NCBI RefSeq assembly: GCF_030845995.1
Contig: NZ_CP132719.1
Location: 1,426,001-1,490,000, forward strand
DNA: 64,000 bases
Direction of reading: 5' to 3'
Source: Geothrix sp. 21YS21S-4
Lineage (GTDB): Bacteria > Acidobacteriota > Holophagae > Holophagales > Holophagaceae
Below the pieces are notes generated by a model. It ran no database searches. It saw nothing but the letters and a program-made list of their open reading frames with translations, and had not been told where the DNA came from. The position numbers were made by a program, and so were the translations under genes. Positions 40,006-48,228 of the stretch are shown here, piece after piece; the stretch's first letter is position 1; each line of letters starts with the position of its first letter.

Positions 40006-41580
40006 ATGTTCCGTCCCGCTCCCAGGCCCTCCCCGGACCGCCTTCTCGTCGGCGATGAGGCGGCGCTCGTCCGGGATCTGGGAGGGCTGGAGCGGGTGAT
40101 CAACCGGTCGGCCGCAGGTGCCGCGCGGACATCCGCCCGGATCCAGACCCTGGCGCGGGAAATCGACCAGATCCTCGTCAGCACCCGCTCGATCCAACAG
40201 ACCCTGGTGGGCCTTGATGACGACATCTCCCGCGCGGCCACGGCGGCGGAAGAGGGCGCCGACGCCACCCGCCGGACCGCGGATCTGACGGCGCAGGGGC
40301 GGCGGGAAAGCGCCGAGGCCGTGTCCACCGTGCGGGAGCTGCAGCGCCAGACGGGGCTCACCGCCGAGAAACTGGAATCGCTGTTGGGCCACATTGCCCA
40401 GGTGAGCGAAGTCTCGCAGGTGATCGGCGAGATCGCGGATCGGACGGGGCTCCTCAGCCTGAACGCCGCCATCGAGGCCGCCCACGCGGGTGAGGCGGGC
40501 CGCGGCTTTGCCGTGGTGGCCGACGAGGTGCGCAAACTGGCGGATCGCACTTCCCAGCAGACCGAAGAGATCGCCGCGCTGCTGGAGGCCATCCGGCGGG
40601 ACCTGGACCCTGCGCGGGAGGCCATGAACCGCAGCGTGGGCTTGGCTTCCGAGACGCGGACGCGCGTGGAGACCGTGGAAGAGCGGTTTTCCGGAATCGC
40701 AGAGCTGGCGGCCTCGGCCGCGGGAAACGTGGTGAGCATCGCGCAATCCGCCGCCAGCCAGCACGGGGCCGCCCGCACCCTGGTGGAAGCCTCTGCCAGC
40801 CTCCTGGAGTCCACCGGCACGTTGAAAACCGAGGCGGAAGCCGTGTCCCGGGAGGCGTTCGCCGTGGCCTCCTTCACGGAAGAGGGCCATCGCCACCTCG
40901 CGCCCTACGACGTCGGTTCCCAGTTCCACCGTGCCCTCCGCCTAGCGCGCGACCTCTCGGCGGTGTGCACCCGCATCCTGGAAGCCCCCGTCCAGGAAGG
41001 GCGGATCCGTCCCGATCAGCTCCTGGCGCTGGACTACGCCGAGATCCGCGGGGCGGAGATCCAGGGCCTGGCGGGATTCTTCGGGGTGCGGCACGTGCCG
41101 CCCGAGGGCTTCCAGCCTCCGAAGTTCCGCACCGCCTACGATGCGCTGGTGGAACGGCCTCTGCAGGAAGCCTTCGACGCGGTGCTGGCGCAGGAGCCCC
41201 GCCTGACCTTCGCCCTGGCCATCGACCTCAACAGTTACGCGGCCTCCCACAACCGGCGCTTCACCCAGGATTGGACCGGACGGCCCGAGCAGGACCTTGC
41301 GGGCAATCGCGCGAAGCGCTTCTTCACCGACAACCGCGTGCTGGTGCGGGGGGCGCGCCACGGCCTGGGCGAAACCGCGGAATCCTTGCCCGATCGCGCA
41401 CCTCGCGGAGACTTCCGTCGCGTCGCCGACCTGGCCCGCCCGGCTGCGAAGACGGACGACTTCCTCGTGCAGACCTACGCCCGCGACACCGGCGCGATCA
41501 TCACCGTGCTGACCGTCCCCCTCTACGCCTGCGGCGAACGGTACGGCGCGACGCTTCTGGGGTGGTCGGACGAGGGCTAG
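40006..41580 (+). CDS. soluble methyl-accepting chemotaxis protein with C-terminal sensor domain
   Basis: The 524-residue protein has no membrane helix. The signalling hairpin tip is normal ([35 protein letters not shown], about 145-185), preceded by a coiled coil. The C-terminal ~220 residues (from [19 protein letters not shown]) contain [44 protein letters not shown] and [33 protein letters not shown], a Cache/PAS-like sensory part of a kind seen C-terminal to MCPs in Geobacter-type bacteria. The receptor likely senses a cytoplasmic signal. No che genes are nearby. Confidence 0.85.
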
Positions 41581-41609
41581 GCGGCGGTCCTGCGACGTGC
41601 CAAAGGGGA

Positions 41610-41629
41610 TATTGAGGTATAACTCAATA
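41610..41629. promoter_or_regulatory. perfect 7-bp-arm palindrome, possible operator
   Basis: TATTGAG-GTATAA-CTCAATA, arms of seven with a six-base spacer, lies in the AT-rich 220 bases upstream of the cadherin-like lipoprotein gene, after the chemotaxis receptor gene. It could bind a dimeric regulator. Confidence 0.4.
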
Positions 41630-41674
41630 CACATCAGCTATATAAATTCTTAACAATTTTTAATGTATCACTTG

Positions 41675-41690
41675 TCGGAATCTATTCCGA
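41675..41690. promoter_or_regulatory. 16-bp perfect palindrome, possible operator
   Basis: TCGGAAT-CT-ATTCCGA, about 110 bases before the lipoprotein start codon, in the same AT-rich stretch. A different sequence from the one at 41610, so a different regulator or a hairpin in the leader could be involved. Confidence 0.4.
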
Positions 41691-41800
41691 TAATCGGTCA
41701 CTTTGCCTCCCCAACCATCCGCCTTTCCCTGTTGATCTCCTGCCTTCGAGCTGGACTGAGGTCCCGCTTTTTTCTTATCTCTTTTCTGTGAGGAAGCCGT

Positions 41801-44083
41801 ATGCATCGATTCCCGCGAAAATGCCTCGCCCTTTTCGCATCCCTCGCCGTGGGCCTCGGTCTGATGACGGGATGCCACTCGAGTTCCCATCCAGCCAAGG
41901 ATGCGGACGCGAGATTGTCCGCCCTGGCGGTATCGGCGGGGATGCTGACTCCCGCCTTCGACGCCTCCGTCACCTCGTACTCCCTGACCGTGGCCGCCTC
42001 GGTGACCAGCACGACGGTCACGCCCACCGTCCAGAGTTCGCGGTCGACGGTAACGGTGAAGGGAACGGGCGTCGCCAGCGGTTCCGCATCGGGCGCCCTG
42101 GCGCTGATCGTGGGGGACAACCTCATTCCGGTGGTGGTCACCGCCGAAAGCGGCGCGACGAAGACCTATACGGTCAACGTGAAGGTCGTCCAGGACGCCG
42201 ACGCCAGCATGGTGGGGCTATCTCCGTCGACCGGCCTCCTGACGCCGGCCTTCGACTCCGATGTGCACGCCTACACCGTGGATCTCTATTCGGGCCCCTC
42301 CAGCCTCACGATCCGGCCGATGCTGGCCAGCGCGAAGGCGACCGTGACGGTGAACGGCGTTCCCGTCGCCAGCGGCGCCACTTCCGCCGCGATTCCCTTG
42401 TCCGTGGGCCAGACACCGATCCAGGTCGTGGTGACTGCCGAAAACGGTTCCAGCGTGACGACGACGGTCACCGTCATCAAGCGGACGCCCTCCACCCCCG
42501 TCTGGGTGCTGGACTCCTCCAACGGCAGTCCGGTCCCCGGCACCATGCTGAGCGTGCTGGATTCCGCGGGAAAGATGCTGGAGAGCTGCATTCCCGTGGG
42601 CGCCAAGGGCACCGTGACCCTCGGGCTCGATCCCACCAAGAAATACATCCTTCGCGCCAAGGGGACGGGTTCCGCCCAGGCCTCCTTCGTGAATTTCGAC
42701 CCCAGTAAGGAATCCTCCGCGAACCTCTACTGCCACCCCCTGGGCATGATCAACTTCCCCGCGGAGGCGCCCCAGATCACCCAGCTCTCGTACAGCGCCG
42801 ACGGAACCACCTGGACGCCGGTCTCCAACAACCAGATCACCGACACCCTGGCGCACATCGCGTACCTGAAGGTGACGGCCATCGGAAAGGCCGGGATCAG
42901 TTCCACGGCCTGGTCCGGATTCGGGATCGGCACCAACGTCGATCGCCCTGCCTGGGCGTGGGATTACGTGCCCGCCTCCGCGATCGATGAGAATTCCGTC
43001 GCCACCCAGGTGGAGGGCCTCCCCTACTACCAGAGCACCTCCGAATTCGCGCTCACCCTCAACAACTTCCTTGCGGGGAACTCCCACTACATCGACGTGG
43101 TGGCCTACGACGTGGCGAACAACCGCACCGAGCAGCGGGTCTACATCACCGTGAATGACGCCGTGACCTACGCGGCCGATCCCGACATCTCGGCGGTGGC
43201 GCCCTCGGCCATGATCGTCCAGCTCGGGACCTACGGCCTCACCCGCGACGTCTTTGCCGTCACGCCCGTCGACCAGAAGAACATCACCTACTCCGCGATC
43301 ATCCAGTTCAACGTGGGTTCCGGCGCCTCGGCTCCGGGCATCCGCGGATTCGAGGTCTACCGTTCCGCGGACGGGACGAACTTCAAGAAAGTGGTGACGA
43401 ACCTGTACGGCACCCTCTACAAGGGCAGCAGCGGCGTCTACAGCTGCTATGACCTGGATCCCTCCCTGCAGGAGGGCGTCACCTACACCTACAAAGTCAA
43501 AGCCTTCAACGGGAACCTGACCAGCAACGGCGGTTATACGCCGGAATCGGTGCTCGTGGCGGCCCAGTATCTGCCGCCCTACACCGTAAGCCTCGCCGCG
43601 CCGGCCACCTACGCCGTCAGCCAGAGCCGGCAGCCCACCTTCAAGTTCGGGATCTCCAATCCGGCCCTCTTCGATCCGGCGGTCTCCGATTACTTCCGCT
43701 TCTACCTCTTCATCAAGGACAAGGTGGGCACCTCGATCTATGGCCAGGCCTACCGCTACAACTTCCTGACCGCGAAATTCGAAAAGCTGGTGGGCGCCAG
43801 CTATGTGGACGCGACTTCCGAAGTGTCCATCAGCGCCGATCACGCGACCGTCAGCATCATCTACCCGAATGCCACTACCCTCATGCCCGGCATCACCTAC
43901 GAGTGGAGCATCTTCGGCACGAAGGGGAGCGCCAGCTATTCCACCTCCGACGCGTCCTCCTTCCTGAAGTACTACGGGACGGATACCGCGGGACGGGCCC
44001 TGTCGTACGGCAGCACGTACGAGAAGAGCTACGGCGCCATCAACGGCTTCTTCACGCTGACCATCGATCCCAATGCCCAGTAG
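41801..44083 (+). CDS. lipoprotein with two cadherin-like beta-sandwich domains
   Basis: The 760-residue exported product has a lipoprotein signal (LGLMTGC, Cys25). Two repeats of the cadherin-like beta-sandwich type follow at about 35-118 and 119-205: DARLSALAVSAGMLTPAFDASVTSYSLTV, IPVVVTAESGATKTYTVNV and ASMVGLSPSTGLLTPAFDSDVHAYTV. Further on there is a prolonged beta-rich region, including a fibronectin type III-like piece (about 500-590: SAPGIRGFEVYRSADGTNF...). It is probably a surface adhesin or scaffold. It shares an operon with the subtilisin-like protease that begins ten bases after its stop. Confidence 0.8.
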   Translation: MHRFPRKCLALFASLAVGLGLMTGCHSSSHPAKDADARLSALAVSAGMLTPAFDASVTSYSLTVAASVTSTTVTPTVQSSRSTVTVKGTGVASGSASGALALIVGDNLIPVVVTAESGATKTYTVNVKVVQDADASMVGLSPSTGLLTPAFDSDVHAYTVDLYSGPSSLTIRPMLASAKATVTVNGVPVASGATSAAIPLSVGQTPIQVVVTAENGSSVTTTVTVIKRTPSTPVWVLDSSNGSPVPGTMLSVLDSAGKMLESCIPVGAKGTVTLGLDPTKKYILRAKGTGSAQASFVNFDPSKESSANLYCHPLGMINFPAEAPQITQLSYSADGTTWTPVSNNQITDTLAHIAYLKVTAIGKAGISSTAWSGFGIGTNVDRPAWAWDYVPASAIDENSVATQVEGLPYYQSTSEFALTLNNFLAGNSHYIDVVAYDVANNRTEQRVYITVNDAVTYAADPDISAVAPSAMIVQLGTYGLTRDVFAVTPVDQKNITYSAIIQFNVGSGASAPGIRGFEVYRSADGTNFKKVVTNLYGTLYKGSSGVYSCYDLDPSLQEGVTYTYKVKAFNGNLTSNGGYTPESVLVAAQYLPPYTVSLAAPATYAVSQSRQPTFKFGISNPALFDPAVSDYFRFYLFIKDKVGTSIYGQAYRYNFLTAKFEKLVGASYVDATSEVSISADHATVSIIYPNATTLMPGITYEWSIFGTKGSASYSTSDASSFLKYYGTDTAGRALSYGSTYEKSYGAINGFFTLTIDPNAQ

Positions 44084-44093
44084 AGAGGCGATC

Positions 44094-46193
44094 ATGAACA
44101 CACCACGCTTCGGGAGCCTCCTTCTCGCACTCGCCGCCAGCTTTGCGCTGATCGGCATCGGATGCGGTTCCCCATCTAAGACGGAGGCGGCGCGCGCGGT
44201 TCCCGCCGCCGTCTCCACTGCGCCCGCCGTGCAATACACCTTCTACAACCCGGCCTCCGAACAGGACCTCCGAAACGACACCGTCTACGGCTTTCTCATC
44301 GTGAAGACCTCGGCCACCTTCCGGGAGTCGCTGTTCGAGAGCCAAGGGCTCAAGGTGGCGGGCCGGTTCACCGCGAAAGGGTTCAACTATTACCACCTCC
44401 AGAAGGATGCCGGGCTCATGGAAGCCATGGACGACCTTCGGAAGATCTCCGGCATCCTCTACGTCGAGCCGGACGTGAGGCTGACGAAGGATTCCGGAAT
44501 CGTCTACGACAACCCCGATCCCCGCGCCCTCAGCGAGGAGTATTCCCTCGCCCTCACGCAGTGCAAGCAGGCCTGGACGACCTACGGCTTCGGCGCGAAC
44601 CGGCCCACCACCGTGGACATCGATACCGGCGTGAATTTCGGCCATGAGGATCTGACCGGGATCGTGACGCACGCCTTCTCGTGGTACGACCTCGACAACG
44701 GCGGCGCGCTCATCGACGGGTCCGACGATCCCACGGTCCAGCCGCTGGATTACCTCGGGACCGCGCGGACGAGCACCGACGGCGCCGGTCACGGGACCCA
44801 TACGGCCGGCACCCTCGCCGCCCGGGGCAACAACGGAAAGGGCGTCGCGGGCGTCTGTTGGAACGTGGATCTCGTTAGCTACAAGGGGCTCTCGGACGCC
44901 GGCTCGGGAGGCACGTGGGCCATCTACGGTTCGCTCTACCACTTGATCCAGTGGAAGGCGGCGCACTACCCCCACACCATCGCCGTCAACATGTCCCTGG
45001 GCGGAAGCAGCGCCTCCCAGTTCGCCATCGACATGGTGGAGCAGTGCGTCGAGAACAACGTCGTCATCGTCGCTTCGATGGGCAACACCGGTCAGAGCCT
45101 GGCCCAGTACCCGGCGGGCTACGCCGGCGTGGTCGCCGTGGGCGCCACCAACGGCCAGGACAAGAAAGTCCACTTCTCCACGTCCGGACGCAACATTTCC
45201 GTGTGCGCCCCCGGTTACGACATCATCTCCACCTATATCGGATCCACTACGGAGTACGAGTCCGACTCGGGGACCTCCATGTCGGCGCCCTTCGTGACGG
45301 GGCTGGTGAACTACATGCTCACCTTCGCTCCCGACCTGAATCCCGCCCAGATCAAGACCTATCTGGAAGCGAATGCCGACTTCATCGAAGGCGCGACGGG
45401 CTACACCGAAGGCACCGGCTGGGGGCGTGTCAACGTGCTGAAGACCATCGCCGCCGTGGTGGCCGATGTGAACGCGCACACCACGCCCGCGTCCAACTAC
45501 GTCAATGCGCCCCTGAAGGTGAAGGTCCTGAATACCTTCCAGGGCTCCACCAGCCCCTTCTCCGGAGTGGCCACCTACCTCTACCAGTGCGATTCCGCCG
45601 GTGCCATTTCCAATTACGTGGCCAGCAGCCTGACGGTGGCGGGAAGCGTCACTGGCGAGGACGGCGTGGCCTTCTTCAATCTGCTTCGACCCGGCTACTA
45701 CGTCGTCAAGACCTACTACGGGAGCACCGCAGGCAGCAGCAGCGTCTTCCAGGTCCAGGCGGGACAATCCATCCCCGTCCAGACCATCAACTACGCGCTG
45801 CCGCTGTACTACATCCAGACCTTCCCCACCGCCGCCGGCGGCACGGCGGACGACATCATCACCCTCTACAACGCGGCCGGCGCCACGCTCACCACCTACG
45901 ACGTAGGCGCCCTCGACACCCTGGCGGTTGTCCTGCCGTCGGCCACCTACACCATCCGGATCACGACCTACGGGGGCTTCTACGGGGAATACGCCCTGTG
46001 GATGGGGCCGGCCCTTCACGCCACGCCCGCTCCCAACACGTTCGCGACGGTCAACACCGGCGCGGGAGAGGTTCTCGGGAGCCAGAGCCATGTGAAGGCC
46101 ACGCCCCAGGCCATCGGCCTGAACACGCTGGTCTACGGCAAGACGACCTCCGGCGCCACGGCGGGGGATTTCTACGCCGTGGTCATTCCCTAG
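44094..46193 (+). CDS. subtilisin-like serine protease (S8), exported
   Basis: A 699-residue protease with a hydrophobic signal (LLLALAASFALIGIGCGS, lipobox imperfect), an inhibitor-like prodomain (about 50-130) and an S8 domain with Asp177 (DIDTGVNFGHEDL), His233 (GAGHGTHTAGT) and Ser395 (DSGTSMSAPFVTG). The triad is complete. The region after about residue 470 holds beta-rich domains of unknown fold (VKVLNTFQGSTSPFSG, then TYTIRITTYGGFYG). RBS GAGAGG before the ATG. It follows the lipoprotein by ten bases, so lipoprotein and protease are cotranslated; the protease may process its partner or other surface proteins. Confidence 0.88.
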   Translation: MNTPRFGSLLLALAASFALIGIGCGSPSKTEAARAVPAAVSTAPAVQYTFYNPASEQDLRNDTVYGFLIVKTSATFRESLFESQGLKVAGRFTAKGFNYYHLQKDAGLMEAMDDLRKISGILYVEPDVRLTKDSGIVYDNPDPRALSEEYSLALTQCKQAWTTYGFGANRPTTVDIDTGVNFGHEDLTGIVTHAFSWYDLDNGGALIDGSDDPTVQPLDYLGTARTSTDGAGHGTHTAGTLAARGNNGKGVAGVCWNVDLVSYKGLSDAGSGGTWAIYGSLYHLIQWKAAHYPHTIAVNMSLGGSSASQFAIDMVEQCVENNVVIVASMGNTGQSLAQYPAGYAGVVAVGATNGQDKKVHFSTSGRNISVCAPGYDIISTYIGSTTEYESDSGTSMSAPFVTGLVNYMLTFAPDLNPAQIKTYLEANADFIEGATGYTEGTGWGRVNVLKTIAAVVADVNAHTTPASNYVNAPLKVKVLNTFQGSTSPFSGVATYLYQCDSAGAISNYVASSLTVAGSVTGEDGVAFFNLLRPGYYVVKTYYGSTAGSSSVFQVQAGQSIPVQTINYALPLYYIQTFPTAAGGTADDIITLYNAAGATLTTYDVGALDTLAVVLPSATYTIRITTYGGFYGEYALWMGPALHATPAPNTFATVNTGAGEVLGSQSHVKATPQAIGLNTLVYGKTTSGATAGDFYAVVIP

Positions 46194-46209
46194 CGCGTCG
46201 GGTTCCGGG

Positions 46210-46243
46210 AGGGGAGGCGAGGCCGAAGCGCCGCGCCTCCCCT
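46210..46243 (+). terminator. hairpin after the protease gene
   Basis: GGGGAGGCG (46211-46219) pairs with CGCCTCCCC (46234-46242) after the protease stop codon, extendable by one A-T pair; the following TTCGCATTTG is only weakly T-rich. Possibly a terminator within the operon, before the small exported gene. Confidence 0.6.
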
Positions 46244-46271
46244 TCGCATTTGCTTCGGCAGAAAGGCATCC

Positions 46272-46832
46272 GTGAAAGTGCTTCCAGGGCTTCTTTCCCT
46301 CATGGTTCTCCTGGCGGCCGTCCCTGGCCACGCAGGCCCGCCCGTGCTCGACCTGCGGCAGGTGGAAGAATTCAAGGTTCCCTCCGATTCCTTCCCGTCT
46401 TTCCACCTGCGTTTCCTGGCCGGCCATCCGGTCCTGTTCACCTTCCGGGCAGGCATCCCCGTCCTCCAGGATCCGGAAGCTCTCGCCATTCCGGAGAAAA
46501 TGTCCGCTCTCTGCACCCTGAGGGCGGAAGATGCGAGGCCCCGCCGGCGAGCGAAACGCGTCCGGTGGGGGGTGCTGAAAGCGCTTCTGCTGAGCGATTT
46601 TCCCCCGATCGGGAAGGGGAACGCCTTCTTTGCCGGCGCGGTGGTTCGCGGTGCGGATTCCCACCGGCGGGAATTCGTCCCGGGCGAAGGCAAAGACAGG
46701 ATCGCCCTGGAATCGGGAACTCCGCTTCCCCCCGGGCCCGCCCTGATCCTGGGCCATCTCGACGAAACCCGGGCGTCCAGCTCCAACCGGCTGGAACCCT
46801 ACCTCGTCGTCGGAGCGTGGATCAGCCTCTGA
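46272..46832 (+). CDS. hypothetical exported protein (186 aa)
   Basis: The product has a Sec signal peptide (LLSLMVLLAAVPGHAGP) and a mature part including FHLRFLAGHPVLFTFRAGIPVL and ALCTLRAEDARPRRRAKR. I recognise no family. It starts at a GTG with AAAGG five bases upstream and lies about 80 bases after the protease, past a possible terminator, so it could be a third member of the exported-protein operon. It converges on rarA. Confidence 0.65.
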   Translation: MKVLPGLLSLMVLLAAVPGHAGPPVLDLRQVEEFKVPSDSFPSFHLRFLAGHPVLFTFRAGIPVLQDPEALAIPEKMSALCTLRAEDARPRRRAKRVRWGVLKALLLSDFPPIGKGNAFFAGAVVRGADSHRREFVPGEGKDRIALESGTPLPPGPALILGHLDETRASSSNRLEPYLVVGAWISL

Positions 46833-46839
46833 TCCGGTC

Positions 46840-48228
46840 TCACAGCGGCTTCGCTTCCAGCTTCCGCGCCAGGCTGAACTTCCCCTGCGCCAGTTTGGCC
46901 ACGGCGCGGGCAAGGGCTTCGCGGCTGCAGGCCAGCTCGGCGCTCCAGGCTTCCAGTGGCAACTCGCCCCCTTCGGGGTGCTCCTCGATCCACGTTTCCC
47001 ATCGCCCAGCGAGGGCCGCCGCCTCGGGCTCCTGGCGATCGCGCCAACTGCGCTCCTGGGGCCTGCGGGGCTCGTAGAAGGCCTGGCTCCGCAGGCGGTC
47101 GGGGAGGAAGGCCTGTTCGCGGTCGTAGTCGTTGTGGGAGTAGTGGTAGCCCGTGCCCATGCCCGCCTTCCGGGCGGTGGAGGTGTGCGAGTCGCGGATG
47201 GCTTCGGGAATGGGGGCGTCCTCCGCGGCGAGGGCGGCGTCGATGCCCATGACGGTGGCGTTGCTCTTGGCGGCGTTGGCCACGTAGATGACCGCCTGGG
47301 CCAGGGGGATGCGGGCCTCGGGCCACCCGATCTGCTCCACCGCGCGGCTGGCGGCTTCCGCCAGGATGAAGGCCTGGGGATCGGCGTTCCCGACGTCCTC
47401 GGCGGCGCACACCATCAGGCGGCGGGCGATGAAGCGGGGATCCTCCCCGCCGCGGATCATGCGGCTGAGGTAGTAGAGCGCGGCGTCGGCGTCGGAGCCC
47501 CGCAGGCTCTTCTGGAACGCGCTGGCCAAGTCGTAGTGGCCATCGGCGCGGTCGAACATCATCCGGCCGCCCAGGGCGCCCTGGAGAGATTCCAGGTCCG
47601 CATCCGGCATTTCCATCCAGGTCTCCAACCCGGACAGCGCGGCCCGGAGGTCGCCCCCCGCCCAGTGGGACAGCCATTCGAAGACCTCGGGCGGTTCCGG
47701 CTCGCCGTCCCGTTCCTTCGCCCAGGCCCGCGCGAGCACGCGCTGGATGTGGGCGGGCTCCAGGCCCTTGAGGGCGATGAGCTGGCAGCGGCTGCGGAGC
47801 GCGGGATTCAGGTAGAACGCCGGGTTCTCCGTGGTGGCCCCGATGAGGACGGCTTCGCCGCGCTCCAGGAAGGGCAGCAGGATGTCCTGTTGGGCGCGGT
47901 TGAAGCGGTGGATCTCATCCAGGAATACGACCGGCGGGACGCCCCGGAATAGGGGCATGTCCCGGCTTTCCTGGAGGAACTTCTTCAGTTCCGCCGCGCT
48001 CCCGCCGACGCCCGAGAATTCCCGAAAGGTGTGACCCGTGGCCTCCGCCAGGATGCGGGCCAGCGTGGTCTTGCCCGTTCCGGGCGGTCCCCACAGCACC
48101 ATGGATGGGAGGCGGCCCCCGGCGGTGAGGCGGGTCAGCCCTCCTTTGGGGCCGAGCAGGTGCTCCTGGCCCACCACCTCGTCGAGGGTCGTGGGGCGCA
48201 GGCGCTCGGGAAGGGGGGCGTGGGACAT
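46840..48228 (-). CDS. rarA: RarA/MgsA replication-recombination AAA ATPase
   Basis: RarA acts at stalled replication forks. The 462-residue protein has [19 protein letters not shown], Walker A GPPGTGKT (47-54), Walker [42 protein letters not shown] (sensor 1) and the C-terminal helical part with [26 protein letters not shown]. Length and motifs are standard. It diverges from alaX. Confidence 0.94.

Follow-up and report, generated by a model that had tools for sequence, protein, structure and literature searches.

The DNA considered here, hereafter the window, is the whole stretch of 64,000 nucleotides from base 1,426,001 to base 1,490,000 of a Geothrix genome, which comprises 3.08 Mb in one contig. 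An earlier note on this DNA, made from the letters alone, had described three exported products in a row, the first two separated by ten bases, and the three consecutive open reading frames, here termed A, B and C, are indeed present (Table 1), with the calls of lipoprotein and signal-peptide character made by eye for all three, such that the export signal of C is a signal-peptide-like start. The ten-base spacing holds if B starts at the ATG at 44094, which is the likely start, the A stop codon ending at 44083; an alternative in-frame ATG at 44073 would make B overlap A.

Table 1. Features of the locus, in window coordinates.
Feature	Coordinates	Strand	Description
Apparent insertion (island)	41581..46839	.	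Contains A, B, C and leader; flanked by an MCP gene and rarA
AT-rich leader with two dyads	41610..41693	.	41610-41629 and 41672-41693, 10+10 each
Gene A	41801..44083	+	Predicted lipoprotein, PrcA homologue, 760 aa; NF033597 164 bits, E 4.2e-48, cut-off 200
Two cadherin-like beta-sandwich domains of A	41915..42481	+	Residues ~39-127 and ~137-227; PF12733 and strand pattern of the model
PrcA-model match within A	42473..43819	+	Residues 225-673; NCBIfam
Low-confidence linker of A	43241..43279	+	Residues 481-493 with Phe485 in the model; hypothetical candidate cut site
Gene B	44094..46193	+	Predicted lipoprotein subtilase, PrtP homologue, 699 aa; NF033595 347 bits, cut-off 300; PF00082
Propeptide domain of B	44232..44486	+	Residues ~47-131, then low-confidence linker 134-152; model and pro-Tk-subtilisin alignment
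Catalytic domain of B	44547..45473	+	D177 at 44622, H233 at 44790, S395 at 45276
Beta-rich C-terminal extension of B	45477..46190	+	Residues ~462-699; model and fervidolysin alignment 50-613
Gene C	46272..46832	+	Small, probably exported, 186 aa, GTG start; no Pfam/NCBIfam family

Gene B encodes a protein of the Peptidase_S8 family (E 2e-36 in Pfam), whose catalytic triad D177/H233/S395 is intact, as the earlier note had read it, and is invariant, together with N331, in all 20 family proteins aligned. The triad aligns with that of the homologue in genome G605, where the numbering becomes 203/258/447 after an offset of 7; the residues given for PrtP of Treponema denticola, the protease of the dentilisin complex, are Asp203, His258 and Ser447 (PMC8167434). 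Cys24 is likewise invariant (20/20), so that B, by eye, is also a predicted lipoprotein, a point absent from the earlier note. The predicted structure (pLDDT 77, pTM 0.77) consists of a propeptide, a linker, a subtilisin domain and, at the C-terminus, beta-rich domains that form in the model an extension of ~238 residues beyond the catalytic domain, in agreement with the ~250 residues by which PrtP is characterised. The protein ends in GDFYAVVIP, which by eye resembles the tail DWFYVEYP reported for PrtP of all T. denticola strains examined (PMC8167434), and such a tail is absent from several Treponema-type copies of B and from most copies in genome G075.

Among structures of known proteases, the best Foldseek match of B is fervidolysin of Fervidobacterium pennivorans (PDB 1r6v; E 3.2e-27), with which 461 residues of the model, between 50 and 613, align at Z 31.4 (rmsd 3.2, 24% identity), an alignment that takes in the propeptide, the catalytic domain and some of the C-terminal extension. 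The modelled propeptide and catalytic fold are also those of pro-Tk-subtilisin (2zwp_B; 350 residues aligned at Z 39.9, rmsd 2.7), its alignments with the model beginning at residue 56-66 and having Z values of 39-40. However, the alignment with the pro-subtilisins stops at residue 457 and leaves the C-terminal extension of B unmatched, and these enzymes are not known to have a lipobox or a partner gene.

The product of gene A matches the Cadherin-like family in two stretches (E 3e-27), which bears out the beta-sandwich repeats previously noticed in the partner of the protease. Its predicted structure is all-beta (pLDDT 81, pTM 0.65), the low-confidence stretch separating N- and C-terminal halves of the model, and Foldseek matches it, among the best 50 rows, to generic beta-sandwich strings with TM values of 0.08-0.18 by query length. 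Cys25, the putative lipidation site, is invariant in an alignment of 15 rows and absent from the invariant columns of the 18-row alignments, in which the variable N-termini align differently. One homologue, of 1042 aa (L131:1387-4515, genome G566), carries a long N-terminal extension relative to the others.

Since curated NCBIfam models for dentilisin recognise the pair, B lying above the PrtP cut-off (347.3 bits) and A giving a strong PrcA match, the earlier view of the locus as an undescribed system was dropped. A falls short of the curated 200-bit threshold and is for that reason termed a PrcA homologue and not a member of the family. Both models match every protein of the modelling alignments (16/16 for B and 15/15 for A), the PrcA cut-off being passed in three of seven genomes outside Holophagaceae and the PrtP cut-off by only three of the eleven B copies of G075. 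In 14 well-known control genomes the PrtP model found no match, and the PrcA model found one sub-cut-off match at E 1e-5 (Deinobacterium chartae) and none at E 1e-8. The gene order prcA-prtP of the T. denticola dentilisin system (PrcB-PrcA-PrtP) is that of A and B, and its composition, in which an acylated subtilase bearing a propeptide and a C-terminal extension is accompanied by a lipoprotein partner, is likewise predicted for the Geothrix proteins. The differences are that the host of dentilisin is an oral spirochete whereas that of A and B is Geothrix, that A, unlike dentilisin PrcA, carries a second cadherin-like domain and lies below the PrcA cut-off, that A and B have 22% and 33% identity, respectively, to the G605 proteins, and that PrcB was not found in the genome of the window. 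PrtP is further characterised by an outer-membrane surface location and by hydrolysis of SAAPFNA, a Phe substrate; by analogy, A and B would be placed at the surface as well.

The domain of PrcB (PF14343, PrcB_C) had no match in any of the ten pair-bearing genomes of Holophagaceae searched, that of the window included and two of them only 81-83% complete, nor in 14 of 17 genomes when the search takes in spirochetes together with Acidobacteriota, and because of its absence from the ten genomes we regard the Holophagaceae pair as a PrcB-less variant. The domain itself is not specific to dentilisin, since it matches four of the 14 control genomes, in three of them above the cut-off. Its wider occurrence is also seen in genomes G436, G438 and G440, in the last two of which PrcB_C lies on a different contig from the pair, and a PrcB-domain protein is reported from Kosmotoga olearia (PMC5674127). 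A full dentilisin-type set is found in a spirochaete MAG (L091:6588-12233), where a protein with PrcB_C, ~0.86 kb upstream of A, is followed by PrcA and PrtP, both above their model cut-offs. Judged by their sequences, A and B are thus a PrcA-PrtP pair, a variant of dentilisin without PrcB in an unexpected phylum. We found no report linking dentilisin with Geothrix or Acidobacteri- in the openly accessible literature (subscription papers lay outside this scope), nor was dentilisin met in the open-access matches listed for the Holophaga, termite, Poribacteria and fervidolysin literature.

The check that the earlier note had asked for, conservation of the gene pairing, whose absence in relatives was to count as refutation, gave a uniform result, A lying directly upstream of B in all 37 copies that could be tested, which come from Holophagaceae, spirochetes and a record bearing the title Poribacteria. 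In the family, 10 of 77 genomes have a full-length B, the same ten in which the PrtP model exceeds its cut-off, and A is found in these ten (the G045 copy being cut by a contig end) and as a remnant in G046. Each of the 20 family copies of B (one in the window, eight in single-copy genomes and eleven in G075) is directly preceded by A on the same strand, and contig ends cut two of the A copies concerned. A scan of genome contigs with an A alignment, which used two short peptide patterns and is no census, gave 24 loci, seven of them outside Holophagaceae/Holophagales (six titled Spirochaet-, one Candidatus Poribacteria), and B adjoins A in all seven. Similarly, a PrcA-model search of 296 genomes of the spirochete phylum matched ten genomes, and in eight of them B adjoins A at 10/10 loci, the remaining two (G436 and G438) being already among the earlier loci. 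The spirochete genomes carrying the pair include other sources than the mouth. Among 396 genomes of the window's own phylum ten were matched with A, seven of the same family and three elsewhere, the latter over the cadherin-like part only. Within the genus of the window the distribution is patchy (full-length B in 4/47 genomes).

Left out of the pairing count as not testable were two A pieces of G075 (G075:C76:11087-12211, at a contig end, and G075:C16, whose match starts 35 bases short of the end of its contig) and the G046 remnant, which, counted as A without B, would give 37/38. This remnant, of 494 aa in the genus of the window (L049:5928-7412), has no B in the 14 kb around it and is apparently a decayed copy. 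Three of the 37 pairs, in which one member is truncated (G045, G075:C35 and L097), are absent from the 34-row alignments and trees. The possible presence of the pair in a third phylum was rejected: in both trees L092, the 5.4-kb MAG contig whose record bears the title Candidatus Poribacteria, falls with two sequences of spirochetes (100/100), and it may be a misbinned spirochete contig. Genome G075 (Holophagales bacterium isolate Mcx344_bin57, 2.1 Mb) contains eleven pairs (L050-L060), full-length and divergent; in nine of these loci a further large lipoprotein-like frame adjoins the pair, with Big_2 domains in the three scanned, and a gut-symbiont origin of this isolate is a guess from its name.

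The location of the trio looks like that of an insertion, in keeping with the word island used previously. The gene rarA was found at E 1e-100 in 44/47 genomes of the genus, and 30 rarA loci, of which 29 are from relatives (L134-L162), were compared. The congeners differ in the gene directly next to rarA, which is an MCP gene in 17, a pirin gene in ten and neither in two, so that a native neighbour stands at the site in 27/29; genes may be readily gained or lost at this junction. No match to A, B or C lay in the stretch of up to 1.5 kb covered beyond rarA in the 29 congeners. Nucleotide alignments to seven congeners, comprising six of MCP type or pirin type with clean alignments and one more, break on the left at 41548-41580 where the MCP gene is present and resume at 46840-46889, and GC content is 0.62-0.66 inside as against 0.68-0.73 outside; inspection of the aligned junctions by eye showed no flanking repeat. 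Apparently, then, the trio was acquired as an insertion, loss from the congeners being less likely because 27/29 sites are empty.

As to its origin, in trees of A the window falls with genus g9 (support 100/100 and 97/99 in two trees) and a clade joining it to the rest of its own genus is rejected (AU p 0.0095), whereas the B tree is undecided, the own-genus clade having an AU p of 0.42 and the g9 clade support of 34/21. B is 67% identical to its counterpart in G067 (g9) and 55% to that in G009 of its own genus, a genome in which the pair lies on a different contig from rarA. A g9-like donor is suggested, and acquisition was probably horizontal. Carriage of the pair by plasmids or viruses was considered and discarded: tblastn of A against plasmids gave partial matches in ten records, mainly over the cadherin-like region, and no relative turned up in one pattern scan of viral contigs.

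Upstream of A, the palindromes from which the earlier note had argued for regulation are real, two dyads being reached in none of 300 dinucleotide shuffles of the leader, but the claim of regulation finds no support. A comparable dyad occurs in none of seven relatives' leaders and a promoter scan found no sigma-70-like site, and a conserved operator was accordingly rejected. Gene C, at the other end, has no match in Pfam or NCBIfam and occurs in 2/77 family genomes, in each case on the downstream side of A and B, the homologue in G068 being weak (31% over 171 residues, E 3e-7); G067 is uninformative here, its contig ending just past B. Of the three-member unit envisaged before, the A-B core is therefore conserved while C is an occasional passenger of the pair, which may have arrived with the island and which, from its position, is at best guess an accessory secreted protein. 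As a substitute for PrcB it was rejected, there being no PF14343 match in the window genome, no known family for C and so narrow a distribution.

How the pair might work is best approached from T. denticola, for which PMC8167434 describes PrtP as made in a lipidated pro-form that is cut at Tyr158 and is mature from residue 159, and PrcA as divided in a PrtP-dependent manner into PrcA1 and PrcA2, fragments of 40 (N) and 30 (C) kDa. The four polypeptides form a detergent-stable complex in which lipid is kept by PrcA1 and PrcB only (PMC8167434). By our estimate the chances are about two in three that A and B are, as a whole, the PrcB-less core of such a surface protease, acquired as an island, in which B is processed and A anchors it and is clipped. 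This reading is based on homology, pairing, the triad, Cys24 of B and the insertion-like location; for surface location, complex formation and clipping of A it draws on analogy with T. denticola, and for the cut sites and a role in feeding on the anatomy of the proteins. Both proteins would be exported as lipoproteins, and B would remove its own propeptide by a cut in or near the linker, perhaps after Tyr138. This residue is F or Y in 15/18 Holophagaceae rows as against 1/16 of the others, and because of the latter figure its equivalence with Tyr158 is a guess. Mature B, of ~58 kDa, would be an active subtilisin-type protease that has lost its own lipid anchor, and A a lipid-anchored, all-beta scaffold that keeps it at the outer surface; since PrcB was not found, A is predicted to anchor it alone. 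B would probably clip A at the linker near residue 485, and the complex would digest external proteins, the resulting peptides being taken up.

The candidate cut in A has a result against it. Cleavage at residue 485 would yield computed fragments of 47.4 and 29.7 kDa in the window protein, and the same cut in the G605 homologue would yield 29.6 (N) and 37.5 (C) kDa, which reverses the published sizes. The column is F or Y in 29/34 sequences, a conservation that is not special because 21 further columns of A have F, Y or W in 27/34 sequences or more, and the aromatic residue is missing in 5/10 G075 copies. Against the reading as a whole stand also the sub-threshold score of A, the small fraction of G075 copies of B that pass the PrtP cut-off, and the lack of a PrcB match, although PrtP expression in T. 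denticola requires PrcB (PMC8167434). Furthermore, PrcA is still cleaved in a Ser447Ala mutant of PrtP, for which the authors suggest residual activity (same source), and direct cleavage of A by B is thereby weakened. The earlier proposal that the protease matures its partner accordingly fits what is reported for PrtP and PrcA in general and sits less easily with this mutant.

These same observations leave some room, at odds we put well below those of the preferred reading, for A being a dedicated scaffold, chaperone or inhibitor, which binds B and stays uncut while B digests external protein. Co-inheritance would need binding alone, the Ser447Ala mutant indicates that PrtP may not be the cutter, and the aromatic residue at the candidate site is neither universal nor distinctive; however, PrcA remains uncleaved in T. 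denticola strains without PrtP or without its C-terminal domain (PMC8167434). Less probable still is that the pair acts mainly on its own cell surface, B trimming or shedding A and other adhesins, which would make the unit an adhesion switch akin to the adhesion/processing unit of the earlier note. It is the string of Ig/cadherin-like sandwiches in A that would suggest an adhesive role, and native expression of the T. denticola surface protein Msp needs PrtP, whereas the structural matches of A are generic strings (TM under 0.2 among the best 50 rows) and dentilisin is reported to break down external proteins and to have a nutritional role (PMC8167434). That A and B are unrelated secreted proteins, neighbours by chance, is scarcely credible: weak matches to B in further family genomes, at 72 bits or less, are other subtilases that need no A, but the pairing is without exception in the testable copies and A and B occur in the same ten family genomes.

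A dentilisin-type protease pair is therefore not confined to the spirochetes of the mouth, the PrcA-PrtP core occurring also in Acidobacteriota, and a dentilisin match in a metagenome is not by itself a sign of oral treponemes. More tentatively, and at somewhat less than even odds, PrcA-PrtP would be a scaffold-protease module of environmental bacteria, self-sufficient and mobile by horizontal transfer, that operates without PrcB, dentilisin one host-adapted version of it, and the amplification to eleven pairs in G075 a possible repertoire of surface proteases. A non-pathogenic host would open to study the questions posed by T. denticola, namely what cleaves PrcA, what purpose PrcB serves and what role the C-terminal domain of the protease plays.
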